A stretch of 64,000 bases of DNA from Flavisolibacter ginsengisoli DSM 18119 (GTDB lineage Bacteria > Bacteroidota > Bacteroidia > Chitinophagales > Chitinophagaceae): positions 62,001-126,000 of the forward strand of contig NZ_FQUU01000010.1 in assembly GCF_900129295.1 (NCBI RefSeq), given 5' to 3'. Made by a program: the position numbers and the translations under genes. Below the pieces are notes generated by a model, which did not search any database, had not been told where the DNA came from, and saw nothing but the letters and a program-made list of their open reading frames with translations. Below are positions 16,961 through 34,820 of this stretch, in pieces. Each line of letters starts with the position of its first letter. Within the stretch, counting starts at the first letter, position 1.

Positions 16961-16991
16961 TTTGCCCAATAACAATTGAGACTTATTTTTG
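16961..16991 (+). promoter_or_regulatory. Promoter of the his leader and hisGDCB
   Basis: A -33 box TTTG (16961-16964) and a -7 box TATTTTTG (16984-16991, perfect TAnnTTTG) are separated by 19 bp, the classic Bacteroidota sigma-ABfr layout. The start codon of the leader peptide (16999) is only 7 nt past the box. Using the SRP RNA gene as calibration, the mRNA would begin about 3 nt before the start codon. Confidence 0.7.
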
Positions 16992-16998
16992 CGCCTCA

Positions 16999-17049
16999 GT
17001 GAAAAAAATATTGGTACATATCCATCATCATGTTCTTGCCCTTGGGTGA
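16999..17049 (+). CDS. hisL: Histidine operon leader peptide
   Basis: A GTG-started reading frame encodes MKKILVHIHHHVLALG. It has four His codons out of five consecutive codons (17017-17031) and a TGA stop at 17047-17049. It is followed by a terminator hairpin just before hisG. This is the arrangement of ribosome-mediated transcription attenuation known from enteric his operons. The stop codon lies inside GGTGAGCC (17045-17052), the sequence that can pair with the 5' arm of the terminator. A ribosome finishing the peptide would therefore cover the antiterminator arm, while one stalled on His codons would leave it free. Confidence 0.85.
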   Translation: MKKILVHIHHHVLALG

Positions 17050-17077
17050 GCCCGTTGATGTATGTATTACAAATAAC

Positions 17078-17108
17078 AAAGGCTTACCGTGAGGTGAGCC
17101 TTTTTGTT
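17078..17108 (+). terminator. his attenuator terminator with alternative antiterminator
   Basis: AAAGGCTTACC (17078-17088) pairs with GGTGAGCCTTT (17093-17103) around a GTGA loop, followed by T-rich TTTTTGTTTT. The 3' arm GGTGAGCC (17093-17100) has an identical copy at 17045-17052 in the leader. That upstream copy can pair with GGCTTACC (17081-17088) to form an antiterminator, so the two structures exclude each other. hisG starts 45-50 nt downstream. Confidence 0.85.
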
Positions 17109-17152
17109 TTACTGCTTTTGAAGAAGCTTTAGTTATTCGTAAAAATTGAAAG

Positions 17153-18007: not shown

Positions 18008-18018
18008 AGCAATGAATT

Positions 18019-19299
18019 ATGCGGGTAATTAATAAGCCATCAAAAAATCAATGGAAGCAATTGCTGGAAAGGCCATATGTTGATAATTCAACGGTGCTGA
18101 ATTCAGTAAAAGAAATATTAAAAAGCGTTGAGAAGGGTAGGGATGGAACGCTAAAAGAGCTTACTAAAAAGTTTGAAAGAGCATTACTAACTGAATTAAA
18201 AGTAAGTGAGGAAGAATTGGCAAATGCGGAGAAAATGGTCCCTGGTGAACTCAAAACGGCTATTCAGCAGGCAAAAGAAAATATCAGCAGGTTTCACCAG
18301 GCCCAGGTAAGGCAGGAGGAAAGGATAGAAACAATGCCCGGAGTAGAATGCTGGAGGAAATCAATTGGAATAGAAAAGGTAGGGCTATATATCCCAGGGG
18401 GTACAGCACCCTTGTTTTCTACTGTGCTGATGTTGGCTATTCCGGCAGTAATAGCAGGTTGTAAGGAGATCATTTTATGTACACCTTGTAATGAAGAAGG
18501 GGATGTGCACCCTGCAATTTTATATACGGCAAAGTTGGTTGGTGTAAACAAGATTTTTAAAATTGGTGGAGCGCAGGCAATTGCTGCAATGGCTTATGGC
18601 ACAGAAAGCGTTCCAGCAGTGTATAAAATTTTTGGCCCGGGTAATCAATATGTGACAGCTGCCAAACAACTGGTGCAAATGCAGGGAATTGCTATTGATA
18701 TGCCTGCAGGGCCAAGTGAAGTTTGTGTATGGGCAGACGAAACCGCCAATCCTTCCTTTGTGGCAGCCGATCTGTTATCCCAGGCAGAGCATGGACCTGA
18801 TAGCCAGGTGCTGCTGGTGAGTACACAGGCTGAAGTTATTGATAAAGTCATAGAAGAAGTGAACAGGCAGGTGCAGATGTTGCCCCGCAAAGACACCGCT
18901 TTAAAAGCCCTGGAAAACAGTAAAGCAATTATTTTAGAAAACTCAGACACTGCTATGGACATGATCAATACCTATGCCCCAGAACATTTGATCTTGTGTT
19001 GCTGTGATGCAGACCAAGTAGCAGAAAGGATCACTAATGCAGGATCAGTATTCATAGGTCATTATTCACCGGAGAGCGTAGGGGATTATGCCAGCGGTAC
19101 CAATCATACACTCCCCACAAATGGCTTTGCGAATGCCTACAGCGGGGTCAGTGTTGACAGCTTTGTAAAAAAGATCACTTACCAGAAATTATCCAAAGAA
19201 GGGCTGGCAAGTATTTCAAATACCGTGGTGCAAATGGCAGAAGCTGAAGGATTGGAAGCACATGCACAGGCAGTCCGGGTGAGAATGCAACAGAATTAG
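18019..19299 (+). CDS. hisD: Histidinol dehydrogenase HisD
   Basis: A 426-residue NAD-dependent zinc enzyme that oxidises L-histidinol to L-histidine, the last two steps of the pathway. Family signatures include GLYIPGGTAPLFSTVLMLAIPA, GPGNQYVTAAK, DMPAGPSEV (about 226-234), the Zn-ligand region LLSQAEHGPDSQ (about 247-258) and APEHL. Normal length. Second gene of hisGDCB; 11 bp after hisG and 58 bp before hisC. Confidence 0.97.
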   Translation: MRVINKPSKNQWKQLLERPYVDNSTVLNSVKEILKSVEKGRDGTLKELTKKFERALLTELKVSEEELANAEKMVPGELKTAIQQAKENISRFHQAQVRQEERIETMPGVECWRKSIGIEKVGLYIPGGTAPLFSTVLMLAIPAVIAGCKEIILCTPCNEEGDVHPAILYTAKLVGVNKIFKIGGAQAIAAMAYGTESVPAVYKIFGPGNQYVTAAKQLVQMQGIAIDMPAGPSEVCVWADETANPSFVAADLLSQAEHGPDSQVLLVSTQAEVIDKVIEEVNRQVQMLPRKDTALKALENSKAIILENSDTAMDMINTYAPEHLILCCCDADQVAERITNAGSVFIGHYSPESVGDYASGTNHTLPTNGFANAYSGVSVDSFVKKITYQKLSKEGLASISNTVVQMAEAEGLEAHAQAVRVRMQQN

Positions 19300-19357
19300 A
19301 TATATAAGAAGCTTGCTATTAAAAATAAATGACCATTATTAAAGCCCAATAACAACA

Positions 19358-20413
19358 ATGAACTTTGATCTTAATAAACTGGTTAGGCAAAATATCAGGG
19401 ATCTGAAACCTTATTCATCTGCCCGCAGCGAATATAGTGGCACAGCCAATGTGTTCCTTGATGCCAACGAGAATAGTTATGGTTCGCCATTAACTAAATG
19501 GTACAATCGTTATCCCGATCCATTGCAGTGGGAATTAAAAAAGAAAATAGCTGCCATTAAAAATGTTCCTGCTGAAAACATGCTTCTAGGTAATGGCAGT
19601 GATGAATGTATTGACCTGTTGATACGGGCATTCTGCGAGCCTCAAAAAGATAACCTCATCATTTGTCCTCCTACCTATGGCATGTATGAAGTTTACGGCA
19701 ATATCAATAATGTGGAGGTGCGTGAAGTGCCTTTATTGCCCGGCTTTCAGCTCAACCTGGAGGCCATTGAGGCTGCGATCGATGAAAATACCAAGTTGAT
19801 CTTTATTTGTTCTCCCAATAACCCTACTGGTAATAGTATGGAAAGGGAAGACATTGAAATAGTCCTTAATAATTTTGAAGGGATAGTAGTGATTGATGAA
19901 GCCTATATCAATTACAGCAGGCGCCGGTCCTTTGTTGCTGAATTAAAAGAATATCCAAACCTTGTGGTTATGCAAACTTTTTCAAAGGCATGGGGGCTGG
20001 CAGCCCTTCGTTTGGGAATTAATTTCGCATCGGATGAAATCGTTAGCATCCTCAATAAGATCAAACCTCCCTACAACATCAACCAGGCAACCCAGGAACT
20101 GGCTTTAAAGGCACTGGATAACCTGGAGGATGTCAACACCATGATCAGGGATACGGTGAAGGAACGAGAGGAATTGGTTAAGGAACTGGTGCAGTTACCT
20201 ATGGTACAGAAAGTGTACCCTTCTGATGCCAATTTTGTTTTGGCAAAAATGGATCAGGCTACCCAGGTATATAATTATTTAAAAGAGAAAGGCATTATTG
20301 TGCGCAACAGGAGCAATGTTGTCCTGTGTGAAGATTGCTTACGTATCACAGTTGGTACGCCAGAACAGCACAAGCAGTTACTTAAAACATTAAAGGAATA
20401 TAAAACTATTTAA
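19358..20413 (+). CDS. hisC: Histidinol-phosphate aminotransferase HisC
   Basis: A 351-residue PLP-dependent class II aminotransferase converting imidazole acetol phosphate to histidinol phosphate. Motifs: LDANEN near the N-terminus, GNGSDE (about 79-84), [18 protein letters not shown], and the PLP lysine in [14 protein letters not shown] (about 207-220). A 58-bp gap separates it from hisD, without a terminator. Its stop is 1 bp from the hisB start. Confidence 0.96.
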
Positions 20414-20414
20414 G

Positions 20415-21581
20415 ATGGAAAGCGGACATTCATCAGGCAGGGGGAAACGGGTATTATTTGTTGACCGTGACGGAACAATGATCCAGGAAGTTCCGCCATT
20501 TTACCAGATCGATTCATTTGATAAAGTATCATTTTATCCCTATGTATTTAAATACCTGGGAAAGATAGCAGAAGAACTGGATTATGAACTGGTGCTTGTT
20601 TCTAACCAGGATGGACTGGGAACAGATAAATTTCCCGAAGAACAATTCTGGCCACCGCATAACCTTGTCATGAGTTCATTTGCCAATGAAGGGATCATCT
20701 TTTCTGAAGAATTGATAGATCGTAGCATGCCTGCGGAAAATTTACCTACCCGCAAACCTGGTATAGGAATGTTTACCAAATACCTGGATAATCCGGAATA
20801 CGATATCGCTAATTCATATGTTATTGGTGATCGCATTACGGATGTACAACTAGCCAAGAATCTTCATTGTAAAGCCATCTGGATAAGAAATAATCCAGAC
20901 CTGGGTGGTGCTGAAGTAAAAGATAGCCTGGATGAATTAGAGAAAGTGGTCGCTTTGTCCACGAAAGACTGGAAAGATATTTATGAATTTTTAAAGCTGG
21001 GCAGAAGGGTATTCCATCATCATCGCAAAACTGCTGAAACATCTGTCGAAATATTGCTGAACCTTGATGGCTCTGGCAAATCAAATATCCATACCGGGTT
21101 AGGTTTTTTCGATCATATGCTTGACCAGATAGCCCGTCATGGCATGCTTGACCTTGACATACAGGTAAATGGAGATTTGGACATAGATGAACACCACACA
21201 ATGGAAGATACCGGGATAGCGCTTGGTGAAGCTTTTATTAAGGCCCTGGGGGATAAAAGAGGCATTGAAAGATATGGGTTTGCTTTACCTATGGATGAGG
21301 TGGAGGCCAAAGTATTAATTGATTTTGGGGGACGTAACTGGATTGTTTGGAATACAGATTTCAGCAGGGAAAAAGTAGGGGATGTGCCCACTGAAATGTT
21401 CTTTCATTTCTTCAAATCCTTTTCCGATGCAGCGCGGTGTAATTTAAATATCGCATGTAAAGGGGAAAATGAGCATCATAAAATTGAGGCTATATTCAAA
21501 GCTTTCGCAAAAGCAATCAAAATGGCAGTTAAAAGAGATCCACTGAAACACTACCTGCCTTCAACCAAAGGAGTACTATAA
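20415..21581 (+). CDS. hisB: Bifunctional histidinol-phosphatase / imidazoleglycerol-phosphate dehydratase HisB
   Basis: A 388-residue fusion. The N-terminal HAD-type phosphatase (about 1-180) has the nucleophile motif VDRDGT (residues 16-21) and [13 protein letters not shown]; it removes phosphate from histidinol phosphate. The C-terminal dehydratase (about 195-388) has the metal-binding motifs [15 protein letters not shown] and [14 protein letters not shown] plus a second copy of the histidine motif near [14 protein letters not shown]. The fused form is known from Enterobacteria and Bacteroidota. Last gene of the first his cluster; the remaining his genes are at 32.1-34.8 kb, beyond the trp operon. 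Confidence 0.96.
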
Positions 21582-21669
21582 GACATTGATATTCGTTGCA
21601 TTCAATATTAAATAGAAACATCCTGTTTATACATGTTTTTATTTGGCACAATTGTTATTTCTTTTTTAA

Positions 21670-22080
21670 ATGGGGAATAAATTGTGTGTTATGAAAGTAA
21701 TTCTAAGTGTTTTGGGGTTTGTACTTCTTACCAGTTTTTCAGGCAAAAAAGTTGATGTTCTTGATGGCATCTGGACGGGCGTTTACCGCGCAGATAATGT
21801 AAGTGAACGTGTGCTGGTTAGATTTGATGATCAAAATGGTGTAGAGTTGTACAATGGTGAGGTAGAGGATAGCAATAAATTTACCGGTACCTATGAACTG
21901 GTAGGTGATACCCTTCTGAAATTTTCCTACCAGACACCGGATGGCAAGAATTTTAGTATGCACGGTACCGTTAATAAGAAAAGGAACTATGTGGATGGGA
22001 CCTGGGAAGCCAGTGATAAATTAACGGGAAGCTTTTACCTGAAAAAAGAGAAGATAGAGGAAATGTTTGTTCAGCCTTAA
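21670..22080 (+). CDS. Small secreted beta-rich protein, hypothetical
   Basis: A protein of 136 residues from 21670, or 129 from the internal ATG at 21691, which gives a cleaner signal peptide (MKVILSVLGFVLLTSFSG). The mature part alternates beta strands with IWTGVYRADN, YELVGDTLLKFSYQTPDGK and DGTWEASDKLTGSFYLKK, in the style of small lipocalin- or DUF-type periplasmic proteins. No family is firmly recognised. The 3' end overlaps the convergent amidohydrolase gene by 4 bp. Confidence 0.7.
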   Translation: MGNKLCVMKVILSVLGFVLLTSFSGKKVDVLDGIWTGVYRADNVSERVLVRFDDQNGVELYNGEVEDSNKFTGTYELVGDTLLKFSYQTPDGKNFSMHGTVNKKRNYVDGTWEASDKLTGSFYLKKEKIEEMFVQP

Positions 22081-23342
22081 GGATTGACATAGAACTTACC
22101 TTCTTTCATTACTAATATAAGGTTGCGAACATCCGATATGGCTTTCGAAGGATCACCTTTTACAGCAATGATATCGGCAAGTAAACCTTTTTTTATACGG
22201 CCTGTTTTTTCTCCGTATCCAAATACATCTGCATTGACAGAAGTGGAAGAGCGTAATACGTCTAATGGCTTCATGCCATACTCAACCATTAATTCCATTT
22301 CCCTGGCATTATCACCATGAGGGAAAACTCCAACATCTCCACCCATGCAAATGATAACGCCATTTTTAAGTGCTGATTGAAAGCTTTTCTTTTTAGCAGT
22401 GATACGTGCAGGCTCAGGGTCAATATTTTTCTTCCAGCCAGCATATTGTAATATGGCTTCCCCTGCAGCCAATGTTGGGCAAAGTGCCACATGTTTTTCT
22501 TTCATTAACCGGAATATTTCCTCATCACCGTCATCGCCGTGTTCAATAGTGCTGACGCCTCCCAGGATTGCCCTGCGCATGCCTTCCTTAGTGGATGCAT
22601 GTGCAACAGTTTGTCTTCCGCTGCTATTGGCAATGGAGGTAGCTGCCGATATCTCTTCCACACTAAAGGTAGGTGCGGCCTGCCCATCACGTCCCCATCT
22701 GTAATCAGCATATATCTTTATGAGGTCAGCCCCTTTTGATATCTGGTTCCTGGCTTCATTACTCATTTCTTCAATATTGCCTACTTCTGCTGCCCCTTGT
22801 GGAAGGTCAAGGTCTGGGTTAGCGTAATTTGGACCATAAGCACCCCTGGCTACAATGGCTTTTGTGGCAATGATCATATGCGGTCCGGGAACTATCTTTT
22901 TCTCTATCGCTTTTTTTAAACCGGCATCATCATAAGCTGCTCCTTCGGTGCCTAAGTCTCGAACAGTAGTAAAGCCAGCCAGTAAAGTAGCCCTTGCATG
23001 TTCTACGGCCCTGGCAGTACGTTCTGCCCTGCTTTCCTTTAAGACCTGGTCATTCCAGTTTACTTCATTATAGGGATGCAGAAAGAGATGGGAGTGTCCT
23101 TCAATCAATCCTGGCAAAAGCGTGGTACCTGCTAAATTGATTACCCTTGTGTTGGCAGGTAATTTAAAGGCCATGGGTCCACATGCTTCTATTTTATTGC
23201 TTTTAACCAATACGATCCAGTCACTATGCATCTGCTCGCCGTCAAAAACACGGTCTGGTTTCAACAGGTAAAAGCTGTCTGTTTGTGCAAATGAAAAAGT
23301 GAAGCTTAAAAGAAACGAGAGAAGTAATGCCATTTTCATCAT
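22077..23342 (-). CDS. Secreted metal-dependent amidohydrolase
   Basis: A 421-residue protein with a signal peptide (about 1-19, ending FSFAQ), placing it in the periplasm or outside. It belongs to the imidazolonepropionase/prolidase-like branch of the amidohydrolase superfamily. Metal-binding motifs visible are GHSHLF (about 81-86), the HAST and EHGDD histidines in the middle and GGDVGVFPHG near residue 330. Substrates in this branch include Xaa-Pro and other dipeptides; the substrate here cannot be told from sequence. It is flanked by small secreted proteins and is not part of the his or trp operons. Confidence 0.88.
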   Translation of the reverse strand: MMKMALLLSFLLSFTFSFAQTDSFYLLKPDRVFDGEQMHSDWIVLVKSNKIEACGPMAFKLPANTRVINLAGTTLLPGLIEGHSHLFLHPYNEVNWNDQVLKESRAERTARAVEHARATLLAGFTTVRDLGTEGAAYDDAGLKKAIEKKIVPGPHMIIATKAIVARGAYGPNYANPDLDLPQGAAEVGNIEEMSNEARNQISKGADLIKIYADYRWGRDGQAAPTFSVEEISAATSIANSSGRQTVAHASTKEGMRRAILGGVSTIEHGDDGDEEIFRLMKEKHVALCPTLAAGEAILQYAGWKKNIDPEPARITAKKKSFQSALKNGVIICMGGDVGVFPHGDNAREMELMVEYGMKPLDVLRSSTSVNADVFGYGEKTGRIKKGLLADIIAVKGDPSKAISDVRNLILVMKEGKFYVNP

Positions 23343-23415
23343 CGAAAGATAAGCATACTATAAACACGTTTCCAGGGCTGACGTTCATGAAAAAGAAATG
23401 GAAGCAAGTTGATGA

Positions 23416-23847
23416 TTATTTAACCCTGGTCCATGTATCGGTCTTTCCTAATAGGGAAAAGCCAATGTAACCCCGGACACTGAGTGTCCTCTGATCTTTC
23501 AATCGCATATAAGCGCTGTATTCCTTGCCATCAGAAGGATTATAGATACGGCCATCCGTCCATTCACCATCATCATATTTAAAGTCTTTCAACATGACAA
23601 GTCCGATAAGCGGATGACTGCGTTTATCGGGGTCAGCGTTTTTATGATCTACCTTTGGTTTTCCTGTCGCATCCAGCGCATCCTTTAACCAGATGATCTT
23701 TCCATAAAAACGACTGTTCTGTTTGTAAATCTGTATATGGCCTTTTCCTGTACCATTCTTCCATATTCCTACAATAGCATCTGCATTATCTTTTGTTGTA
23801 AAAGAATGCAGACCTAATAAGGGAAGTAAAAATAACAGTGCCTTCAT
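23416..23847 (-). CDS. DUF2147 domain-containing secreted protein
   Basis: A 143-residue protein with a short signal peptide (about 1-18). The mature part fits DUF2147: VGIWKNGTGKGHIQIYKQNSRFYGKIIWLKD at the start, then DPDKRSHPLIGLVMLKDF and a C-terminal LSVRGYIGFSLLGKTDTWTR. The family forms a small beta-barrel; its function is unknown, and members are often secreted. It reads in the same direction as the amidohydrolase 73 bp away, so the two may share a transcript. Confidence 0.85.
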   Translation of the reverse strand: MKALLFLLPLLGLHSFTTKDNADAIVGIWKNGTGKGHIQIYKQNSRFYGKIIWLKDALDATGKPKVDHKNADPDKRSHPLIGLVMLKDFKYDDGEWTDGRIYNPSDGKEYSAYMRLKDQRTLSVRGYIGFSLLGKTDTWTRVK

Positions 23848-23998
23848 AAGTTATAATTTGATGAGTTCATAAATAAAAAGGCTCATCACCTTTATATCCT
23901 AAGATTGTTCCAGTTTAAACTTACTGCTTAGTTTTAACAGGGAAAAGAAAAAGGATGCAAAAATTAAAGGAAAGGATGCATATAAAATATATAAAACT

Positions 23999-24295
23999 CT
24001 AATCCTCAACCTCTGCGTATACATCCCTGTATTCTTTTTTCATTTCAAATACAGCCCTTGCAAAAGAGCATATTGGATGAATTTTCAGATGCCGGGATCG
24101 GGCAAATTCAACAGCTTTATAGATCAATTGGTCACCTACATCCTTCCCCCGTAAGGCCTTATCAACTTCTGTATGTTCAATAATTATTGATCCGGGGTCT
24201 TTTTGGTCATAGGTCAATGCAGCCACTGTGTCTTCATGGCCATCCTGAATAAAAAATATACCTCCTGACCCGTTTTGTTTGTGTTGTATCAGCAT
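23999..24295 (-). CDS. Small GNAT-like N-acetyltransferase (YjdJ type)
   Basis: A 98-residue protein with the compact acetyl-CoA-binding core of the Acetyltransf_CG/YjdJ group. Visible features are IIIEHTEVDKALRGKDVGDQLIYKAVEFARSRHLKIHPICSFA: a beta-bulge-helix unit and a conserved Cys. Substrates of this small group are mostly unknown. It is transcribed away from the trp leader, and its start lies 67 bp from the leader peptide, so its promoter region abuts the trp promoter. Confidence 0.85.
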   Translation of the reverse strand: MLIQHKQNGSGGIFFIQDGHEDTVAALTYDQKDPGSIIIEHTEVDKALRGKDVGDQLIYKAVEFARSRHLKIHPICSFARAVFEMKKEYRDVYAEVED

Positions 24296-24321
24296 AGGTT
24301 TCTGTTAAAGCTTAAATTATT

Positions 24322-24353
24322 TTTGTCCAAATGCCGTGCCCTTTGCATATTTG
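24322..24353 (+). promoter_or_regulatory. Putative promoter of the trp leader
   Basis: TTTG (24322-24325) and CATATTTG (24346-24353, one mismatch to TAnnTTTG) are 20 bp apart. The leader ATG is 8 nt after the second box, nearly the same spacing as at the his leader. A perfect TATTTTTG also exists at 24318-24325, overlapping the proposed -33 element; if that is the true -7 box, the 5' UTR would be about 32 nt. Confidence 0.5.
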
Positions 24354-24361
24354 CATACGAA

Positions 24362-24421
24362 ATGGTACAGTTAATTAACAAACAGTGGTGGTGGCATACA
24401 AACTCAAATGGGGTTCTGTAA
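24362..24421 (+). CDS. trpL: Tryptophan operon leader peptide
   Basis: The ATG-started frame encodes MVQLINKQWWWHTNSNGVL, with three consecutive Trp codons at 24386-24394 and a TAA stop at 24419-24421. A terminator follows at 24453-24474 and trpE at 24511. The last codons (GGG GTT CTG, 24410-24418) are complementary to CAGAGCCCC (24450-24458), which contains the 5' arm of the terminator. Stalling at the Trp codons would leave this segment free to form the antiterminator; completed translation would cover it. This is a compact analogue of the enteric trpL attenuator. Confidence 0.88.
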   Translation: MVQLINKQWWWHTNSNGVL

Positions 24422-24452
24422 GCTATTGCCATAGTTTATTCATCATATTCAG

Positions 24453-24474
24453 AGCCCCTATCAGGGGCTTTTTT
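24453..24474 (+). terminator. trp attenuator terminator
   Basis: AGCCCCT (24453-24459) pairs with AGGGGCT (24463-24469) around a 3-nt loop, followed by TTTTTT. CAGAGCCCC (24450-24458) can instead pair over 9 bp, with one G-U, with GGGGTTCTG (24410-24418) at the end of the leader reading frame. The two structures are mutually exclusive. Confidence 0.87.
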
Positions 24475-24510
24475 ATTGCCTGTCCCTTTCAATAAGCATT
24501 ATAAAGAAGA

Positions 24511-25974
24511 ATGAGTATGCAAACAGAAGCTAATACAGTACATGAATCCAGGATCAGGGGTAAGAAAATAAAGATCACCACAACCATTACCAGGAAACTG
24601 GCCGATGTGTATACACCTGTGGGCATCTACCTGCGTCTCCGGGATAGGTTCAGGGATACGGTCTTGTTGGAAAGTACAGACAGTCATGTGGCGGAGAACA
24701 GCTATTCCTTTATAGGCATCAATGCTATTGCGGGCATAGAGATCAGGGATAAGGATTATGTGGCCTTTAAATTCCCGGGACAGAATCCTGAAAAACTGGG
24801 CTTAAAAAAGTCAGATGATTTGAAAGAGATCCTCTGGGAGTTCATGAACCATTTTGAAACAGAAAGCGATGATCCTAAAACAGCCTGTTTGGCTCAAGGA
24901 GTATTTGGATATTTTAATTTTGAAGCAGCAGGTTTTTTTGAACATATAGATTTTAAACAGGGAGACCCTGTAAACAAGATCCCCCTGGCCCGGTATAGGT
25001 TGTACCAATATGTCATTGCCATCAATCACTTCAAGGATGAACTGATGCTGTTGGAAAATAAAGTGGATGGCCTTGAAAGTGAAGCGGATGTGGTGCAATC
25101 TCTTATTAATAGCAAAGATGTACCTACCTATCCTTTTTCATCTGTTGAAGCTGAAACATCCAATATAGAAGATGAGGCATACCGGCAGATGGTGTCAAAA
25201 GGAATCAAAAGCTGCCTTAGGGGTGATGTTTTCCAGATCGTTTTAAGCCGTCGATTCCAACAATCCTTTAAGGGAGATGAATTCAATGTATACAGGGCTT
25301 TACGGCATATCAATCCTTCCCCTTATCTATTCTTTTTTGATTATGGGGATTACAAATTATTGGGTTCCTCGCCCGAATCGCAATTGGTCATCAAAAACGG
25401 GAAAGCAATAGTTCATCCTATAGCTGGTACCTTTCGCAGGTCAGGGGATGATATAGTTGATCAGCAGCGGGCAGATGAACTGTTGGCAGATGCCAAAGAA
25501 AATGCCGAGCATGTGATGTTGGTTGACCTGGCAAGAAATGATCTCAGTACGGTTTGCACTAATGTTAAAGTCGAGCATTTCAGGGAAGTACAATATTATT
25601 CTCATGTCATACACCTGGTCAGTGAGGTTACAGGTTCTGTTTCCCACGGTGTCAATCCTTTTGAGGTTTTGTTCAAAACTTTCCCCGCAGGTACATTAAG
25701 CGGAGCTCCAAAGTACAAAGCAATGCAATTGATCAATGAATATGAAACTACGCCCAGAAGCTTTTATGGTGGTGCCATTGGCTATGTAGGTTTTGATGGA
25801 ACCTGCAACCATGCCATTATGATCCGCACCATGCTCAGTAAGGAAAATACTTTGATATACCAGGCAGGTGCAGGCGTAGTTGCTGCGAGTGATCCTGAAA
25901 GTGAATTACAGGAGGTCAATAATAAATTAGGTGCATTAAAAAAGGCTATTACCATGGCCAATACTATTAATTAA
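24511..25974 (+). CDS. trpE: Anthranilate synthase component I TrpE
   Basis: A 487-residue chorismate-using enzyme making anthranilate with TrpG. The C-terminal chorismate-binding domain shows FQIVLSRRF (about 240), the SPESQL segment, IAGTFRRSGDD, DLARNDLSTV, FPAGTLSGAPKYKAM (about 393-407) and YYGG-like FYGGAIGYVGFDG. The N-terminal ESTDSHVAENSYSFIG carries the Trp feedback region. The start may be at 24511 or 24517 (second Met). First structural gene after the trp attenuator; trpG follows after 5 bp. Confidence 0.96.
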   Translation: MSMQTEANTVHESRIRGKKIKITTTITRKLADVYTPVGIYLRLRDRFRDTVLLESTDSHVAENSYSFIGINAIAGIEIRDKDYVAFKFPGQNPEKLGLKKSDDLKEILWEFMNHFETESDDPKTACLAQGVFGYFNFEAAGFFEHIDFKQGDPVNKIPLARYRLYQYVIAINHFKDELMLLENKVDGLESEADVVQSLINSKDVPTYPFSSVEAETSNIEDEAYRQMVSKGIKSCLRGDVFQIVLSRRFQQSFKGDEFNVYRALRHINPSPYLFFFDYGDYKLLGSSPESQLVIKNGKAIVHPIAGTFRRSGDDIVDQQRADELLADAKENAEHVMLVDLARNDLSTVCTNVKVEHFREVQYYSHVIHLVSEVTGSVSHGVNPFEVLFKTFPAGTLSGAPKYKAMQLINEYETTPRSFYGGAIGYVGFDGTCNHAIMIRTMLSKENTLIYQAGAGVVAASDPESELQEVNNKLGALKKAITMANTIN

Positions 25975-25979
25975 AGCAT

Positions 25980-26558
25980 ATGAAGATCCTGGTCTTTGAT
26001 AATTACGATTCGTTTACCTACAACCTGGTTCATTTGGTAAAGAAAATAGTTACCGATAAAGTAGAGGTATTTCGCAATGATGAAATCGCTTTGGAGAAAG
26101 TGCAGGAGTATGATAAGATCATATTGTCTCCAGGCCCTGGTATACCTTCTGAAGCCGGCCTGTTACTGCCTTTAATAAAAGAATATGCAAAAACCAAATC
26201 CATCCTTGGCGTATGCCTCGGTCACCAGGCCATTGCAGAGGCTTTTGGAGGCACCCTTATTAACCTGTTAACTGTATTTCATGGTGTGGCTACACCCATC
26301 CGGATCACTAATAAACATTCGCAGGTATTGAATGGTTTGCCACAAAACATTAAGGTAGGCAGATACCATAGCTGGATAGTAAGTGATACATCTTTTCCGA
26401 AAGAACTGGAAGTGACGGCTATTGATGAGAATGGTTATATAATGGGTTTACAGCATAAGACCTATGATGTGCAGGGTGTGCAATTCCATCCGGAAAGCGT
26501 ACTGACACCTGAAGGAGAAACGATAATGAGAAACTGGCTGGTGGGTGCACCTAAATAG
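25980..26558 (+). CDS. trpG: Anthranilate synthase component II (glutamine amidotransferase) TrpG
   Basis: A 192-residue class I glutamine amidotransferase supplying ammonia to TrpE. The catalytic Cys is in GVCLGHQAIAEAFGG (about 77-91) and the His-Glu pair in VQFHPESVLTPEG (about 167-179); the N-terminal FDNYDSFTYNLV is typical. In some bacteria this subunit also serves PabB; no pabB is in the window. It lies 5 bp after trpE and 39 bp before trpD. Confidence 0.96.
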   Translation: MKILVFDNYDSFTYNLVHLVKKIVTDKVEVFRNDEIALEKVQEYDKIILSPGPGIPSEAGLLLPLIKEYAKTKSILGVCLGHQAIAEAFGGTLINLLTVFHGVATPIRITNKHSQVLNGLPQNIKVGRYHSWIVSDTSFPKELEVTAIDENGYIMGLQHKTYDVQGVQFHPESVLTPEGETIMRNWLVGAPK

Positions 26559-26597
26559 TTTACAGGTAGAATGTGATTACTGATAAAGCGAATTTCA

Positions 26598-27590
26598 ATG
26601 AAAAAGATCTTACAACGATTATTTGAACATAAGACCCTTACCAGGGATGAAGCAAAAGAAGTGATGCTGCAAATAGCAAAAGGAAGTTATAACGACACAG
26701 AACTTACTGCGTTTATAACTGTTTACCTCATGCGCAGTATTACCATTGCCGAACTCCAGGGGTTCAGGGATGGGCTGCTTGAACTAGCTGTACCCGTGGA
26801 CATGGAAGGACAGAAAGTGATGGATATAGTTGGAACGGGCGGCGATGGAAAGAATACATTTAATATATCCACGCTTGCCTGTTTTGTGGTGGCGGGTGCC
26901 GGGAAAAAAGTAGCTAAACATGGGAACTATGGGGCTACTTCTGTAAGTGGAGCATCGAATGTTATGGAAACGCTGGGCTATAAATTCAAAAACAATAATG
27001 CTCAGCTGAAGAAGGAAATGGATGCTGCTAACTTTACATTTCTTCACGCTCCACTGTTTCACCCTGCATTGAAGGCAGTAGCTTCCATACGAAAGAATAT
27101 AGGGTTTCGCACCTTTTTTAATATGCTTGGCCCAATGGTGAATCCTGCTAATCCTGCCTACCAGTTGGTTGGTGTATATAACCGTGAAATGGCTAGGATT
27201 TATAACTACCTGTTGCAGGAAACTGGCAACCCTTTTACCATTATCCATAGCCTGGATGGGTATGATGAGATCTCTCTGACCAATGACACTAAGGTGATTA
27301 CCAATAAGGGTGAAAAAGTATATTCACCAGAGGAATTGGGTAGACGCACTGTATCTCCCCTTGATATTTATGGAGGATCTACTGTTGATGAGGCAGCCAA
27401 AATATTTTCCCGTGTTTTGAAAGGTGAAGGAAGCTGGGCTCAAAACGCAGTTGTACTGGCCAATGCTGCCATGGCTCTGGAATGTACGGGTGATTTCAAA
27501 GATTATAATGAAGCCTATGATACGGCTGTAGATAGTCTTGAAAGCGGGAAAGCCTTCAAGTCTTTTCAAACTTTAATTTCAATGCAGTAA
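26598..27590 (+). CDS. trpD: Anthranilate phosphoribosyltransferase TrpD
   Basis: A 330-residue enzyme that joins anthranilate to PRPP. Family motifs GTGGDGKNTFNIST (about 80-93), KHGNYGATSVSGASNVMETLG (about 107-127), FLHAPLFHPA and RTFFNMLGPMVNP are all present. It is a stand-alone TrpD, not fused to TrpG. The last base of its stop codon is the first base of the trpC start codon. Confidence 0.96.
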   Translation: MKKILQRLFEHKTLTRDEAKEVMLQIAKGSYNDTELTAFITVYLMRSITIAELQGFRDGLLELAVPVDMEGQKVMDIVGTGGDGKNTFNISTLACFVVAGAGKKVAKHGNYGATSVSGASNVMETLGYKFKNNNAQLKKEMDAANFTFLHAPLFHPALKAVASIRKNIGFRTFFNMLGPMVNPANPAYQLVGVYNREMARIYNYLLQETGNPFTIIHSLDGYDEISLTNDTKVITNKGEKVYSPEELGRRTVSPLDIYGGSTVDEAAKIFSRVLKGEGSWAQNAVVLANAAMALECTGDFKDYNEAYDTAVDSLESGKAFKSFQTLISMQ

Positions 27591-28366
27591 TGAATATCCT
27601 GGAAAAGATCATAGCCCGGAAGTCAAAGGAAGTAGCAGCAAAAAAAAATGATGTGCCTGAACAGGAATTGGAGAAAGGGCGTTATTTTTCAAGGCAGACT
27701 TTATCACTTCGTAAGAGACTGCTTGATGATAAGCATACAGGCATCATTGCTGAATATAAAAGAAGGTCGCCTTCCAAAGGCATTATCAACGACAGGGATA
27801 GTGTAGAAGCAGTGACAATGGCGTATACGGCATATGGCGCTTCGGGAATTTCAATATTAACGGACCTTGAATTCTTTGGAGGATCTTTGGATGATCTCAT
27901 CAGCGCAAGGGATAATGGTATTCCCCTTTTGCGCAAGGACTTTATGATTGATGAATATCAAATTACAGAAGCCAAAGCGTATGGGGCGGATGTCATTCTT
28001 TTGATAGCTGCTTGTTTATCACCTTTACGGGTTAAACAATTAGCTCAAAAAGCAAAGGAATTGGGACTGGAGGTATTATTGGAGTTACATGATGAAAGCG
28101 AATTAGATCATATTTGTGAACTTGTTGATCTTGTTGGTGTAAATAACCGGAACCTAAAAACATTTGAGGTAGACCTGGAGCATTCTACCAGGTTGGCAGA
28201 AAAGATCGGGAGTGATTTTGTAAAGGTGGCCGAAAGTGGTATCAATGATGTGAATAATATAAGGTATTTAAAAGCTCATGGTTTCCAGGGATTTTTGATT
28301 GGAGAGTATTTTATGAAGCAGAAAAGCCCGATGGAAGCATTCAAGAATTTTAGTTACAGCCTATAA
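27590..28366 (+). CDS. trpC: Indole-3-glycerol-phosphate synthase TrpC
   Basis: A 258-residue TIM barrel closing the indole ring. Motifs: IAEYKRRSPSKG (about 52-63), SILTDLEFFGGSLDDL, LLRKDFMIDEYQ (about 112-123), DVILLIAACLS, LLELHDE, VGVNNRNLKTFEVDL and the phosphate-binding VAESGIND. It starts within the trpD stop (TAATG), suggesting coupled translation. It is separate from TrpF, unlike the enteric fusion, and 95 bp lies before trpF. Confidence 0.96.
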   Translation: MNILEKIIARKSKEVAAKKNDVPEQELEKGRYFSRQTLSLRKRLLDDKHTGIIAEYKRRSPSKGIINDRDSVEAVTMAYTAYGASGISILTDLEFFGGSLDDLISARDNGIPLLRKDFMIDEYQITEAKAYGADVILLIAACLSPLRVKQLAQKAKELGLEVLLELHDESELDHICELVDLVGVNNRNLKTFEVDLEHSTRLAEKIGSDFVKVAESGINDVNNIRYLKAHGFQGFLIGEYFMKQKSPMEAFKNFSYSL

Positions 28367-28370
28367 ATTC

Positions 28371-28472
28371 ATGTATTCATATTTCAACGATAGCAAGCAG
28401 TTTTCAAAGTACATGGTATCGATTGCCTTAGCTGATTTTTTAAACCGGTTAAAAGCAGGACATGAAAATTAA
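28371..28472 (+). CDS. Short open frame between trpC and trpF
   Basis: An ATG-started frame of 33 codons fills the only sizeable gap in the early trp operon and overlaps the trpF start by 11 bp. The product is polar with no recognisable motif (begins MYSYFNDSKQ). It could keep ribosomes moving into trpF (translational coupling) or be a remnant. There is no independent evidence that it is expressed. Confidence 0.25.
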   Translation: MYSYFNDSKQFSKYMVSIALADFLNRLKAGHEN

Positions 28473-29130
28473 AGTATGCGGTATGACCACCATGGACCAG
28501 TTACACCAGCTGGAGGATATTGGGATAGATTTCGCAGGGTTTATTTTTTATCCTAAAAGTCCCAGGTTCGCAGGCAAACAGGGATTAACCGGAACAGATG
28601 TAAAATCAGCAAAACTTAAATTGTACAAGGTGGGTGTTTTTGTAGATGCTTCGTATGATGAAGTTATGCGCAAGGTTGATGAGTTTGGGCTTGATATGGT
28701 TCAACTTCATGGAAGGGAAACACCTTTCGAATGTTCAAAGATCGCCGACTACATTGATGTTATAAAGGCGTTCAGGTTCATGGAGAATGATCATGTGGAA
28801 TGGATGATCAAGGATTACTATAGTGAAGCTGATATGTTTCTGTTTGATACCGGTGTTCCTGTATCCAAAGATGAGGCCGGAAATACAATGCTGTATGGTG
28901 GCACTGGCAGAAAATTTAACTGGAACCGGTTAAAAGGTCTTTCCATACGAAAACCGTTTTTCCTGAGTGGTGGAATTGAACCAGGGGATGCGCAATTGGT
29001 TAAGGATTTTATGCAGGAGCCAGTAGCGAAAGATCTTTTTGTAGTGGATATTAACAGTCGCTTTGAATTGGCACCGGGCATCAAAGACATGGAAAAAGTA
29101 AAGCAATTTAAAAACGAACTGAATTCATGA
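28462..29130 (+). CDS. trpF: Phosphoribosylanthranilate isomerase TrpF
   Basis: A 222-residue TIM barrel performing the Amadori rearrangement of phosphoribosylanthranilate. The catalytic Cys is in KIKVCGMT (residues 2-9), with FYPKSPRF (about 30-37), VQLHGRE, the catalytic Asp region FLFDTG and the phosphate-binding LSGGIEPGDA (about 174-183). It overlaps the cupin gene by 4 bp (ATGA). Confidence 0.95.
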   Translation: MKIKVCGMTTMDQLHQLEDIGIDFAGFIFYPKSPRFAGKQGLTGTDVKSAKLKLYKVGVFVDASYDEVMRKVDEFGLDMVQLHGRETPFECSKIADYIDVIKAFRFMENDHVEWMIKDYYSEADMFLFDTGVPVSKDEAGNTMLYGGTGRKFNWNRLKGLSIRKPFFLSGGIEPGDAQLVKDFMQEPVAKDLFVVDINSRFELAPGIKDMEKVKQFKNELNS

Positions 29131-29492
29131 ATATGGAAAAAGTAAACCTGTTGGAGAAGTTTTCCTTGTTTAAGGAGCAATGGAGCCCAAAGATCGTAGG
29201 AGAATTAAATGGACAGCATATAAAGCTTGTGAAATCCGAAGGAGCTTTCGTTTGGCACAAGCATGAAAATGAAGATGAATTGTTTTTAATAGTGAAGGGA
29301 AAATTAAATATGGAGTTCAGGGATAAAACAATCGTATTGGAGGAAGGTGAATTCCTAATTGTCTCCAGGGGAGTTGAACACAGGCCCGTGGCTGTTGAGG
29401 AAGTATGGATGCTATTATTTGAACCTGTGGCTACACTGAATACAGGTAATGTTGTTGATGAAAAAACAAAACATGCATTGGATAGGATTTAA
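29127..29492 (+). CDS. Cupin domain protein inside the trp operon
   Basis: A 121-residue single-domain cupin. The metal-binding motif GAFVWHKHENEDELFLIVKG (about 35-54) contains the HxHxxxxE pattern; the second motif has VSRGVEHRPVA. It overlaps trpF by 4 bp (ATGA; an alternative start is 29133), and trpB begins 33 bp downstream, so it is co-transcribed and probably co-translated. A cupin is not a standard Trp enzyme. It could be a metal-dependent enzyme of an indole or anthranilate side reaction, or a small-molecule sensor. Either is a guess from context. Confidence 0.88.
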   Translation: MNMEKVNLLEKFSLFKEQWSPKIVGELNGQHIKLVKSEGAFVWHKHENEDELFLIVKGKLNMEFRDKTIVLEEGEFLIVSRGVEHRPVAVEEVWMLLFEPVATLNTGNVVDEKTKHALDRI

Positions 29493-29525
29493 ACTCTTTA
29501 TTACCCGGCTAGAAAAACTTTAATA

Positions 29526-30722
29526 ATGAACGAAACTCAATCATATATATCACCGAGTCCGCAAGGATACTATGGTCGTTTTGGCGGCGCTTATATTCCT
29601 GAAATGTTGCACAGGAATGTGGAAGAATTAAAAACGCGCTACCTGGAGATCATGCACGAGGCCGAATTTCAACGGGAATACCAGCAATTGCTGCAGGATT
29701 ATGTGGGCAGGCCAACACCTTTGTACTTTGCAGGACTCTTAAGCCGTAAATACAATACAAACCTGTTTTTGAAGAGGGAAGATCTTTGTCATACCGGAGC
29801 GCATAAGATCAATAACACTGTAGGACAGATACTGCTGGCATTACGCCTTGGCAAGAAACGTATCATTGCTGAAACAGGGGCAGGGCAGCATGGTGTGGCA
29901 ACAGCTACGGTATGCGCTTTAAAAGGAGTGGAGTGCATTGTTTATATGGGGGAAAAGGATATTGAACGACAAGCACCGAATGTTGCCAGAATGAAAATGC
30001 TGGGAGCTAAAGTGATACCTGCAGTCAGTGGCAGCAAAACTCTAAAGGATGCTACAAACGAAGCTATCAGGGACTGGATCAACAATCCTTCAGATACGCA
30101 TTATATTATTGGAAGTGTGGTAGGTCCTCATCCATATCCCGACATGGTGGCACGCTTTCAAAGTATCATTTCGAAAGAAACTCGCTGGCAGTTAAAAGAA
30201 AAAACGGGTACTGAATTACCGACCCATGTAGTAGCCTGTGTAGGTGGTGGATCTAATGCAGCAGGAGCGTTCTATCATTTCCTTGATGAACCCTCTGTAA
30301 AGATCATTGCGGTGGAAGCTGCAGGCTATGGTATTGATTCTGGAATGAGTGCCGCCACGACACGCCTGGGGAAAGAAGGTGTGTTGCATGGTAGCCGGAG
30401 CCTGGTCATGCAAACTGAAGATGGCCAGGTAACAGAACCTCATAGCATCTCTGCTGGCCTGGACTACCCTGGAATAGGGCCCATGCACGCCCACCTTTTT
30501 GAAAGCGGCCGTGGACAGTTTCTTTCTGCAACAGATGAAGAAGCATTAAAAGCTTCTTTTGAAGTAGCCAAACTGGAAGGCATCATACCTGCACTGGAAA
30601 CAGGCCATGCTTTTGCAGCTTTGGATCAATTGTCATTGACAATGGAAGACAGGGTAGTGCTTTGCCTGAGCGGCAGGGGGGATAAAGACCTGGCTACTTA
30701 TATGAAAGTGATGGATGCGTAA
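29526..30722 (+). CDS. trpB: Tryptophan synthase beta chain TrpB
   Basis: A 398-residue PLP enzyme joining indole and serine. The start of the mature fold GYYGRFGGAYIPEML, the PLP lysine in LCHTGAHKINNTVGQ (about 86-100), the AETGAGQHGVATATVCA loop, the phosphate loop CVGGGSNAAG and the C-terminal LSGRGDKDL are all present. The length is that of the TrpB1 type that pairs with TrpA. TrpA is encoded 467 bp downstream, with a DUF695 gene in between. Confidence 0.97.
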   Translation: MNETQSYISPSPQGYYGRFGGAYIPEMLHRNVEELKTRYLEIMHEAEFQREYQQLLQDYVGRPTPLYFAGLLSRKYNTNLFLKREDLCHTGAHKINNTVGQILLALRLGKKRIIAETGAGQHGVATATVCALKGVECIVYMGEKDIERQAPNVARMKMLGAKVIPAVSGSKTLKDATNEAIRDWINNPSDTHYIIGSVVGPHPYPDMVARFQSIISKETRWQLKEKTGTELPTHVVACVGGGSNAAGAFYHFLDEPSVKIIAVEAAGYGIDSGMSAATTRLGKEGVLHGSRSLVMQTEDGQVTEPHSISAGLDYPGIGPMHAHLFESGRGQFLSATDEEALKASFEVAKLEGIIPALETGHAFAALDQLSLTMEDRVVLCLSGRGDKDLATYMKVMDA

Positions 30723-30770
30723 AACGGTTAAATCAGTAGAAATAACAGTGATCAATAAATAGATAAGAAA

Positions 30771-31193
30771 ATGAAAAGTAATAATGCAACGTATAGTGGT
30801 TTTGAGTTTGAGGTAGATGGATATCCTGCGCTTGCCATCATTAACAGTGATCTCAAAAACCTGGAGAATAAATCTCAATACCCTTATTCTGTATTTATCG
30901 AGTTGGTACCGGACAGCTTTAATGAGAATGGTCACCCGGAAGACGAAGAGTATGATTATTTAAATGATGTAGAGAAAAAGATCATTGAATACCTGGAAGG
31001 TCAGACCCAGACAGTACATGTGGGCCATACAACGCTTTATCGTACCAGGGAAATTATATTTTATACAAAGGACAGGGATGCAGTATCTAACTTCCTGGAA
31101 AGCTTCCTGGAAACAATCGAAAGGGAAAGCAGCTTTGATATTGAAGAGGACAGCAGCTGGGAAAATGTTTCAGCTTTTTACGAACTACTATGA
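30771..31193 (+). CDS. DUF695-like protein between trpB and trpA
   Basis: A 140-residue acidic soluble protein. The opening GFEFEVDGYPALAIINSDLKNLE and YPYSVFIELVPDSF look like the DUF695 family; the second half carries DYLNDVEKKIIEYLEG and TLYRTREIIFYTKDRDAV. The function of DUF695 proteins is not known. The stop overlaps the trpA start by 4 bp (ATGA), which makes it an integral operon member placed between two subunits of one enzyme complex. A role in TrpAB assembly or regulation is possible but unsupported. Confidence 0.7.
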   Translation: MKSNNATYSGFEFEVDGYPALAIINSDLKNLENKSQYPYSVFIELVPDSFNENGHPEDEEYDYLNDVEKKIIEYLEGQTQTVHVGHTTLYRTREIIFYTKDRDAVSNFLESFLETIERESSFDIEEDSSWENVSAFYELL

Positions 31194-31960
31194 GCAGATT
31201 AAATAATTTATTTCAACAAAAGAACAAGAGGATCTTAAATGTTTATTGCACTGCAGGATATCCTACCCTGCAAAGCACCATAAATGTTATGCGTTCTTTA
31301 CAGGAAAATGGTGCCGACCTGATAGAATTGGGAATGCCTTACAGTGATCCTTTAGCCGACGGCCCGGTGATACAGGCCAGCAGTTCAAAGGCCTTGCAAA
31401 ATGGCATGACGATTCCAACTCTTTTCGCGCAATTAAAAGACTTCAGGAAGGATATTACTGTCCCGGTGATTTTGATGGGTTATTTAAATCCGTTGTTGCA
31501 GTATGGTTTCGAAAAATTCTGCGCCAAAGCCGCTGAAGTTGGAATAGACGGGATCATCATTCCGGATATTCCCATGTATGAATTTGAACAGGAGTACAGG
31601 GCTATTATTGAAAAGTATGGATTGGATTTCATTTTTTTGGTCACTCCTGAAACATCAGAGGAAAGGATCATAAAACTTGATCAATTAAGCAGTGGATTTT
31701 TATATGCCGTTTCTTCTTCATCTATTACCGGATCTGATAAAGATTTTTCTCCTGTAGAAACCTACCTGCACAAGCTACAGTCATTGAAGCTAAAAAATCC
31801 GGTGCTGGTGGGGTTTGGAATAAAGGATAAGGCAACATTTGAAACAGCCTGCAAATATGCCAATGGTGCAATTATCGGAAGTGCATATATAAAGGCGCTG
31901 GAATCAGATGATAATGTGGAAATGGCTACCAGGGAATTTTTAAATGGAATATTAAATTGA
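31190..31960 (+). CDS. trpA: Tryptophan synthase alpha chain TrpA
   Basis: A 256-residue TIM barrel cleaving indole-3-glycerol phosphate to indole, which is channelled to TrpB. The catalytic Glu and Asp sit in LIELGMPYSDPLADGPVIQ (about 44-62); the YCTAGYP region, MGYLNPLLQYG, PDIP and VGFGIKD are also typical. Its TGA stop (31958-31960) touches the antisense tRNA-Gly: the last base of the stop is the tRNA discriminator base. Confidence 0.96.
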   Translation: MSRLNNLFQQKNKRILNVYCTAGYPTLQSTINVMRSLQENGADLIELGMPYSDPLADGPVIQASSSKALQNGMTIPTLFAQLKDFRKDITVPVILMGYLNPLLQYGFEKFCAKAAEVGIDGIIIPDIPMYEFEQEYRAIIEKYGLDFIFLVTPETSEERIIKLDQLSSGFLYAVSSSSITGSDKDFSPVETYLHKLQSLKLKNPVLVGFGIKDKATFETACKYANGAIIGSAYIKALESDDNVEMATREFLNGILN

Positions 31961-32032
31961 GCGGAAGACGGGACTCGAACCCGCTACCTACAGCTTGGGA
32001 AGCTGTCGCTCTACCAGGTGAGCTACTTCCGC
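31960..32032 (-). tRNA. tRNA-Gly (anticodon CCC)
   Basis: 73 nt on the minus strand. The acceptor stem GCGGAAG/CTTCCGC, D-arm AGCTC..GAGC, anticodon stem ACAGC/GCTGT with loop TTCCCAA (anticodon CCC, reading GGG), and T-arm GCGGG-TTCGAGT-CCCGT are all complete; the discriminator is T and CCA is not encoded. It lies antisense in the 95-bp gap between trpA and hisH. Its 3' end abuts the trpA stop and its 5' end is 23 nt from the hisH ATG, so its promoter must lie within the hisH start region. Confidence 0.93.
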
Positions 32033-32055
32033 TTTGATAACGCAAGAAAGTTACA

Positions 32056-32643
32056 ATGAATCTCGCAATAATAAAATACAACGCCGGAAATATTCAATCA
32101 GTATTAAATGCGCTGGATCGTTTGGGATACAACGCCATTGTTACTGATGAAAGAGATAAAATACTGGGTGCTGATAAAGTGATCTTTCCCGGTGTAGGAG
32201 AAGCCAGCAGCGCCATGAAAAGTTTGCAGGACAATGGTCTTGATTCTATCATCAAAGAATTGAAACAGCCCGTATTGGGCATTTGTGTGGGCATGCAATT
32301 GCTTTGTCAGCATTCAGAAGAAAATGATATAGACTGCCTGGGAATAGTTCCGGTGAAGGTCAGGAAATTCCAGGCACTGGAAGGTTTAAAGGTTCCCCAG
32401 GTAGGGTGGAACAACATTTATAATCTTAAGTCAGCATTGTTTAAAGATGTAGACAACAATAGTTTTGTTTATAATGTACACAGTTATTATGCTGAGGATA
32501 GCGCTTATACTATTGCCAGCTGCGATTATGGCATAACCTATGCTGCGGCCGTACAGAAAGATAACTTTTACGGTGTGCAGTTTCATACTGAGAAAAGCGC
32601 CAGAACCGGTGATAAGATCATACAAAACTTTTTGAATTTATAA
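32056..32643 (+). CDS. hisH: Imidazole glycerol phosphate synthase, glutaminase subunit HisH
   Basis: A 195-residue class I glutamine amidotransferase that feeds ammonia to HisF. The catalytic Cys is in LGICVGMQLL (about 74-83) and the His-Glu pair in GVQFHTEKS (about 174-182); the N-terminal YNAGNIQSV and FPGVGEA are family marks. It opens the second his cluster, with no His leader peptide or terminator before it, only the antisense tRNA-Gly. The last base of its TAA is the first base of the hisA ATG. Confidence 0.96.
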   Translation: MNLAIIKYNAGNIQSVLNALDRLGYNAIVTDERDKILGADKVIFPGVGEASSAMKSLQDNGLDSIIKELKQPVLGICVGMQLLCQHSEENDIDCLGIVPVKVRKFQALEGLKVPQVGWNNIYNLKSALFKDVDNNSFVYNVHSYYAEDSAYTIASCDYGITYAAAVQKDNFYGVQFHTEKSARTGDKIIQNFLNL

Positions 32644-33362
32644 TGGAGATCATACCTGCTATAGATATAATAGATGGCAAATGCGTTAGGCTCACGCATG
32701 GCGATTTCAACCAGAAAAAGATCTATAATGAGAACCCCCTGGAAGTGGCAAAAGAATTTGAAGATGCCGGTATACGGCGGCTGCATCTTGTTGACCTGGA
32801 TGGTGCAAAAGCAGGGGTAGTAAAAAACTGGAAAGTGCTTGAATCCATTGCAGGCAAAACCTCGCTGGTAATTGATTTTGGGGGAGGTGTAAAAACAGAG
32901 AAAGATGTTCGGATAGTGCTTGATTCAGGTGCTGTTTTTGTGACAGTAGGCAGTATAGCGGTAAAGGATGAACCATTGTTTTCTTCCTGGCTGAGTGCCA
33001 TAGGAGCTGAAAAGTTTCTGCTGGGTGCAGATGTAAAGGATGAAAAAATCACGGTAAGCGGGTGGCTGGAACAAACAGATATTTGGATCTATGATTTTAT
33101 AGAAAGCTACCAGGCCAAAGGCATCACACGAATTTTTTGTACCGATGTTTCTAAAGACGGTGCAATGGAAGGCCCTTCACTGGTTTTATATAAAAACATA
33201 GTAGAGAGGTTTCCTAAACTTCATTTTATAGCCAGTGGAGGTGTCAGTAATATGGATGATGTGTATGCCCTGGAAGAAACGGAGTGCAGTGGGGTTATAA
33301 TTGGCAAGGCAATCTACGAAGGGAAAATATTATTAAAGGATCTTGTGAAACTGAAACAATAA
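32643..33362 (+). CDS. hisA: ProFAR isomerase HisA
   Basis: A 239-residue TIM barrel isomerising 5'-ProFAR. The first catalytic Asp is in [20 protein letters not shown] (about 3-22), the half-barrel repeat shows [13 protein letters not shown] and [11 protein letters not shown], and the second catalytic Asp is in [12 protein letters not shown] (about 168-179). It overlaps hisH by 1 bp and is followed by hisF after 2 bp. Confidence 0.96.
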
Positions 33363-33364
33363 AT

Positions 33365-34123: not shown

Positions 34124-34182
34124 ATCAATTGATTCCAGGATCAGCTGATATCCTTTCCCCGGATATTGTTCCTTTTACCCAA

Positions 34183-34213: not shown

Positions 34214-34218
34214 CAATA

Positions 34219-34818: not shown

Positions 34819-34820
34819 AC

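Follow-up and report, generated by a model that had tools for sequence, protein, structure and literature searches.

What controls the entry of RNA polymerase into the trp operon of the window, i.e., the whole stretch of 64,000 nucleotides of Flavisolibacter ginsengisoli DSM 18119 analysed here? An earlier note had placed a WWW leader, a 9-bp antiterminator and a terminator upstream of trpE, with the antiterminator arm inside the last leader codons, and all of these elements were confirmed (Table 1). The pairing of GGGGTTCTG with CAGAGCCCC was exact, comprising 9 bp including one G-U (RNAduplex, −17.4 kcal/mol) and sharing bases with the terminator. Tandem Trp codons in a short ORF preceded the cognate operon, in which trpE is followed by trpG, D, C, F, B and A (the names trpE and trpF are best NCBIfam matches with scores below the curated cut-offs), and an intrinsic terminator was located between the leader and trpE. 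Furthermore, the pairing of segments 2 and 3 (2:3) was mutually exclusive with the terminator (3:4), a point for which the swap control described below was weak, and a protective hairpin (1:2) began at or after the control codons. The leader thus very probably attenuates transcription of the trp operon in the classical ribosome-mediated way, operating through 1:2, 2:3 and 3:4.

Table 1. Coordinates of the trp and his leader features in the window.
Feature	Position	Strand	Basis or remark
trp −33 element TTTG	24322..24325	+	sequence; 20 nt before −7 box
trp −7 box CATATTTG	24346..24353	+	sequence; first base deviates from Bacteroidota consensus TAnnTTTG
Predicted transcription start (inferred)	24358..24359	+	published box-to-start spacing; 3–4 nt before leader ATG
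trp leader ORF MVQLINKQWWWHTNSNGVL (then stop)	24362..24421	+	19 codons, ATG 24362 to TAA 24421, upstream of trpE
Outward extension of 1:2 5′ arm, spanning Trp codons	24385–24395	+	fold
Trp codons 9–11 (WWW) of leader ORF	24386–24394	+	sequence
Segment 1, TACAAACTC, directly 3′ of Trp codons; 5′ arm of 1:2	24397..24405	+	fold; RNAalifold consensus (58 leaders)
Segment 2, GGGGTTCTGTA; partner is segment 1 or segment 3	24410..24420	+	fold, pairing, synonymous-codon control
Antiterminator 5′ arm GGGGTTCTG	24410–24418	+	pairs with CAGAGCCCC
GCTATTGCCAT, partner of Trp-codon stretch in extended 1:2 hairpin	24422..24432	+	fold
Segment 3, CAGAGCCCC, antiterminator 3′ arm; its AGAGCCCC is part of terminator 5′ arm	24450..24458	+	
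Intrinsic terminator (3:4) and U tract	24451..24474	+	hairpin AGAGCCCCT-ATC-AGGGGCTTT at 24451–24471, then T's
trpE (anthranilate synthase component I)	24511..25974	+	first gene of trpEGDCF-(cupin)-B-(DUF695)-A
his −7 box TATTTTTG	16984..16991	+	by eye; 7 nt before GTG
his leader ORF VKKILVHIHHHVLALG (then stop)	16999..17049	+	GTG 16999 to TGA 17049
his 1:2 hairpin, CTTGCC / GGTGAG	17035..17050	+	fold
his segment 3 GGCTTACC (2:3 with GGTGAGCC 17045–17052) and terminator GGCTTACC / GGTGAGCC	17081..17103	+	

The RNA from 24362 to 24485 folded better than 200 of 200 dinucleotide shuffles (z −4.03). Its fold consisted of the terminator and a hairpin in which TACAAACTC paired with GGGTT.TGTA, i.e., the antiterminator arm, and the outer stem included the Trp codons. 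When ribosome masks were forced onto this leader, 1:2 and 3:4 formed without a ribosome, a mask at the Trp stall gave 2:3 (−19.6 kcal/mol), which persisted when segment 4 was included, and masking at the stop codon gave 3:4. Without a ribosome and without segment 4, segment 2 was held in 1:2 and was unpaired with segment 3; therefore, the predicted default without translation is termination. These mask states, together with the cognate operon, support in model form the response to tryptophan proposed earlier.

Sequence and comparison provide the ORF, its three predicted helices that exclude one another, the promoter motif and their conservation; we infer when each helix forms, which stretches the ribosome covers and how the leader responds to tryptophan as follows. 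With ample Trp-tRNA, the ribosome would reach the stop codon and cover segment 2, whereupon 3:4 would form and RNA polymerase would stop upstream of trpE. With scarce Trp-tRNA, it would stall at Trp 9–11 and cover segment 1; 2:3 would then form ahead of segment 4 synthesis, and transcription would go on. In the absence of translation, segment 2 would be held by 1:2, and termination would be the default.

A TrpE-type match was found in 143 of 146 genomes of the family (paralogues counted), which we take to be Chitinophagaceae from its named relatives. The same layout had been suggested as something to look for before other Bacteroidota trp operons, and a Trp-codon leader before trpE was indeed found both within the family and beyond it. 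After removal of a paralogue (L002) and the split trpE of one genome (G127), 106 trpE loci of the family were examined, that of the window among them. A WW-containing leader was present at 103 of these, and a U-tailed hairpin lay downstream of the leader in 103/103, although these loci are related and the counts are therefore not independent. Two of the other three loci (L077 and L086) had a single-Trp leader by eye, and no leader was recognised at the third (L101). Among 79 named loci, which overlap with the family set (79 of 80; L303 was dropped because it had no upstream DNA), 72 carried a WW or W.W leader, and six of the other seven (all except L273) had a GWH-type single-Trp leader with a terminator, as judged by eye. 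The single-Trp leaders (L077, L086, L292, L293, L296 and L298–L300) were mostly of the GWH type and kept the terminator and the G-rich leader end (by eye); they constitute a natural test of the number of control codons needed. An ordinary terminator of upstream transcription next to a chance ORF is a rival reading, in favour of which terminator-like sites across 16500–36000 occurred at approximately the shuffle level (19 found, 17.5 expected). However, the his and trp terminators ranked first and second or second and first among those sites, and the recurrence of the Trp leader ORF at 103/106 loci, each of the 103 with a U-tailed hairpin, leaves this explanation a negligible probability.

The codon choice of the leaders also bears on the attenuator. 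In a synonymous-codon control, the codons 3′ of the Trp run were reshuffled in the 103 leaders using the codon usage of 11 window genes. The mean 2:3 energy was −12.87 kcal/mol for the real leaders versus −8.59 kcal/mol for the synonymous shuffle, with the real leader beating the shuffle mean in 86/103; the corresponding values for 1:2 were −6.46 versus −3.03 kcal/mol and 98/103. At single loci, p < 0.05 was reached in 36/103 (2:3) and 45/103 (1:2). By analogy with peTrpL of Sinorhizobium, which is reported in the available part of PMC7298713 to act in trans, the leader peptide could itself be functional and its conservation could reflect that function, consistent with the conserved C-terminal WWWHTNS.RGL. 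This is very unlikely to be the explanation, given that the codons chosen 3′ of the Trp run strengthen the pairings more than the encoded amino acids demand and that outside the family the peptide ends differ whereas the leader and terminator are kept.

The attenuator helices differed in the kind of comparative support they received. When leader ends were combined with the terminators of other genomes, the 2:3 energy was −11.4 kcal/mol against −12.87 kcal/mol with their own, and their own terminator was better than the swapped mean in 77/103. Foreign terminators thus paired almost as well, meaning that co-variation of 2:3 is weak, and this predicted helix is supported less by covariation than by conserved complementarity. 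Because anchored counts of 2:3 pairs mixed two registers, they were not taken as evidence of covariation. An RNAalifold consensus of 58 leaders recovered 1:2 and 3:4 unaided, although removal of 18 of the 76 equal-length leaders (near-duplicates and odd types) biased it to canonical leaders. In this consensus, 10 of 22 pairs had at least one double-sided change, eight of them in 3:4 (clear) and two in 1:2 (small). A model built from family leaders (R1) and searched in 98 family genomes gave matches in 72 at E ≤ 0.001, of which 58 genomes had a strong one (E ≤ 2.7e-7), one each. The remaining matches were weak (1.2e-5 to 9.5e-4); two of them (G053 and G045) sit at trpE, and the others we read as chance. 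With R1, no second strong match per genome that would indicate an additional trp-type attenuator elsewhere was found in the 98 family genomes.

Mask tests were extended to the 84 of 103 leaders with a G-containing C-terminus of the window's type (19/103 were left out). Before segment 4, an antiterminator of at least 5 bp formed in 26/84 without a ribosome and in 81/84 with a Trp stall. With a ribosome at the stop codon, the outcome depended on the masking of RNA upstream of the ribosome: the antiterminator formed in 7/84 when the mask extended over the whole RNA as far as the edge of the ribosome, whereas with a ribosome-sized mask only (edge +12), segment 3 was paired somehow in 60/84, mostly with the freed Trp codons. 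Once segment 4 was present, 84/84 terminated without a ribosome and 84/84 at the stop codon. With segment 4 and a Trp stall, the minimum-energy fold terminated in 78/84, antiterminated in five and did neither in one. Therefore, antitermination in most relatives must be under kinetic control, with timing as the deciding factor.

The his leader of the window had been put forward as a second case of one compact, one-step attenuator type. It is real and has the same layout as the trp leader, and a leader was present at 67 of 70 hisG loci (70 of 112 matches examined, 30 listed and 40 hand-picked); in the three misses, L132 and L149 had no leader, and L148 ended at the contig end. In the synonymous control, real his leaders beat the shuffle mean in 59/67 for 2:3 and 57/67 for 1:2. 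Under masks, the antiterminator formed in 67/67 his leaders at the His stall, 59/67 at codon 3 and 23/67 without a ribosome. For the trp leaders, a mask at codon 3 gave the antiterminator in 38/84 and one at the codon after Trp in 81/84 (edge +12); as a codon-3 stall also yields the antiterminator in both groups, the mask test alone is unspecific for the control codons. The one-step reading holds that 2:3 competes with 3:4 only, without 1:2, so that the outcome depends on the ribosome alone and transcription continues through an untranslated leader. It draws on a 2:3 pairing that is real and strong and on the free RNA without segment 4 that forms 2:3 in 26/84 trp and 23/67 his leaders, including the his leader of the window. 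Yet 1:2 was present in the window fold and in the consensus of 58 leaders, and it was stronger than the synonymous-shuffle mean in 98/103 trp and 57/67 his leaders, making this reading improbable. Since the trp and his leaders both carry the protective 1:2 hairpin, the parallel between them stands, but a distinct compact one-step design is unsupported. In the window his leader, where 2:3 does arise in free RNA lacking segment 4, the modelled default without translation is less clear than in the trp leader. For this his leader, no Rfam family exceeded its cut-off, and His_leader did not match even at E ≤ 10.

The classical attenuator appears to be preceded by a promoter placed unusually close to the leader start. 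The Bacteroidota −7 consensus is TAnnTTTG at positions −12 to −5 (available text of PMC6847099 and PMC9723704), and a spacing of 4–5 nt from the −7 box to the transcription start (PMC6847099, same text) would put the start of the window leader at C (24358) or G (24359). In 86 of the 103 trp leaders, a −7 box of the form [TC]AnnTT[TC]G ended 4–10 nt upstream of the leader start (51 at 7 nt). Of 1204 other ATGs, 11 had a box at 3–12 nt; this background tests one ATG each whereas leaders could use any in-frame ATG or GTG, which is a mild bias favouring the leaders. TTG or TTTG occurred 17–21 nt upstream of the box in 83/86 boxed leaders versus 14/86 in an offset control window, and a purine was found at the first of the predicted +1 positions in 66/86, the window being an exception with its C. 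Together with the published 4–5 nt, these distances predict a 5′ UTR of ca. 0–6 nt (3 or 4 in the window). In this genome the box ended 7–8 nt upstream of the trp, his and phe leader starts, and 49 of the 67 his leaders had a box within 4–10 nt. Many leaders in another family of the class (f5) had 16–20 nt between box and start; thus, the near-leaderless trait is not phylum-wide.

Such a 5′ UTR of 0–6 nt, if correctly predicted, would separate these leaders from typical Bacteroidota mRNAs. According to the accessible parts of the respective reports, a 5′ UTR of < 10 nt accounts for ca. 3.7% in B. thetaiotaomicron (PMC7366714) and leaderless transcripts for 5.5% in F. psychrophilum (PMC9723704), and 87% of F. 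johnsoniae transcripts have a 5′ UTR of > 10 nt (PMC6847099). Attenuation implies ribosomes close enough behind RNA polymerase, in a phylum that is said, in the portion of PMC6847099 consulted, to be without Shine–Dalgarno sequences. A shared group design, in which the leader peptide is made from a nearly leaderless mRNA and early Shine–Dalgarno-independent loading would couple the ribosome tightly to RNA polymerase, is a tentative reading that we regard as possible rather than probable. If true, the leaders would be direct reporters of transcription–translation coupling in Bacteroidota. To our knowledge, such coupling has been little studied in this phylum.

The window did not reach the cut-offs of the two Rfam models for Trp leaders, scoring 25.3 bits against RF00513 Trp_leader (cut-off 41; model positions 1–100 of 100 aligned) and 20.1 bits against RF01692 Bacteroid-trp (cut-off 49). 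RF01692 was above its cut-off in 5/149 class genomes, and none of six matching genomes belonged to the window's family (strict filters). A search of 14 other loci at E ≤ 0.1 gave matches only upstream of trpE in a class relative (L192; RF01692, 76.2 bits) and at L017 (RF00513, below cut-off). The E. coli-type trp leader of RF00513 served as the layout for comparison. It shares three features upstream of trpE with the window, namely Trp codons in tandem, the 1:2 hairpin and a terminator with a U tract, whereas in the window segment 2 lies inside the last ORF codons and the predicted 5′ UTR is ca. 4 nt. RF01692, listed in the part of PMC2864571 available, is likewise a Bacteroidota Trp leader peptide RNA ('Bacteroidete tryptophan peptide leader RNA' in the Rfam text); however, its model begins 20 nt before the AUG, whereas the window leader is predicted to be near-leaderless. 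In F. psychrophilum, transcriptome clues for leader-peptide attenuation before amino-acid operons and structured conserved 5′ elements of pheA and hisG are described in the accessible text of PMC9723704; this species belongs to another family, and the likeness to the window leaders is by description, not by sequence. In C. glutamicum, the leader-peptide mRNA of the ilvBNC attenuator is leaderless and has antiantiterminator, antiterminator and terminator hairpins, but this attenuator concerns branched-chain amino acids in Actinobacteria (PMC11857589, in the part available). With Bacteroidota Trp leaders, the F. psychrophilum clues and a leaderless attenuator already on record and both cut-offs missed, the window leader, judged by its sequence, belongs to an uncatalogued branch of a known attenuator type. 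None of the literature matches listed dealt with a trp leader of Chitinophagaceae. Bacteroidetes predictions may be contained in Lopatovskaya et al. 2010 (Mol Biol 44:128). The present analysis therefore corrects the mechanism first proposed and describes a family-wide trp (and his) attenuator branch missed by the Rfam models.

The named relatives with a leader included Flavihumibacter, Niastella, Terrimonas, Sediminibacterium and Chitinophaga, and more distantly Epilithonimonas and Kaistella. A WW leader preceded trpE at 24 of the 26 loci L188–L213, two of the 26 being family members already counted; by eye, L197 and L210 had ..WLW.. instead of WWW upstream of trpE. At order, class and phylum level, a WW leader was found at 19 of 20 loci hand-picked from a ranking (L214–L233), and a wider upstream stretch at L230 contained only an unconvincing WW frame. 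Outside the family, the peptide ends varied, and the leader and terminator persisted.

Of the genes covered by a simple motif scan of the same genome, pheA alone had a convincing leader; none convincing was found before ilvD, three aspartokinase genes or two HMGL-like genes. A phe leader, MTITKAYGCYFSFFYFSRSRDCFC, and a terminator precede pheA (L320, contig C35, upstream of 181612–182142, − strand), with a candidate 2:3 pairing of AGCCGGGACT.. and ..GATCCCGGCC (−18.0 kcal/mol) and a box, TATATTTG, 7 nt before the ATG by eye. In the trp operon of the window, a cupin-domain gene (29127–29492) and a DUF695 gene (30771–31193) are inserted around trpB, and a tRNA-Gly (ccc) on the − strand (31959–32032) overlaps the final bases of trpA. 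A divergent gene for a small GNAT acetyltransferase (PF14542; 24000–24298) adjoins the trp promoter. Elsewhere, one trpE match (L030, genome G009) contained one in-frame TGA, and the window also encodes a small SRP RNA at 15198–15305 (Rfam RF04183, 93.6 bits).
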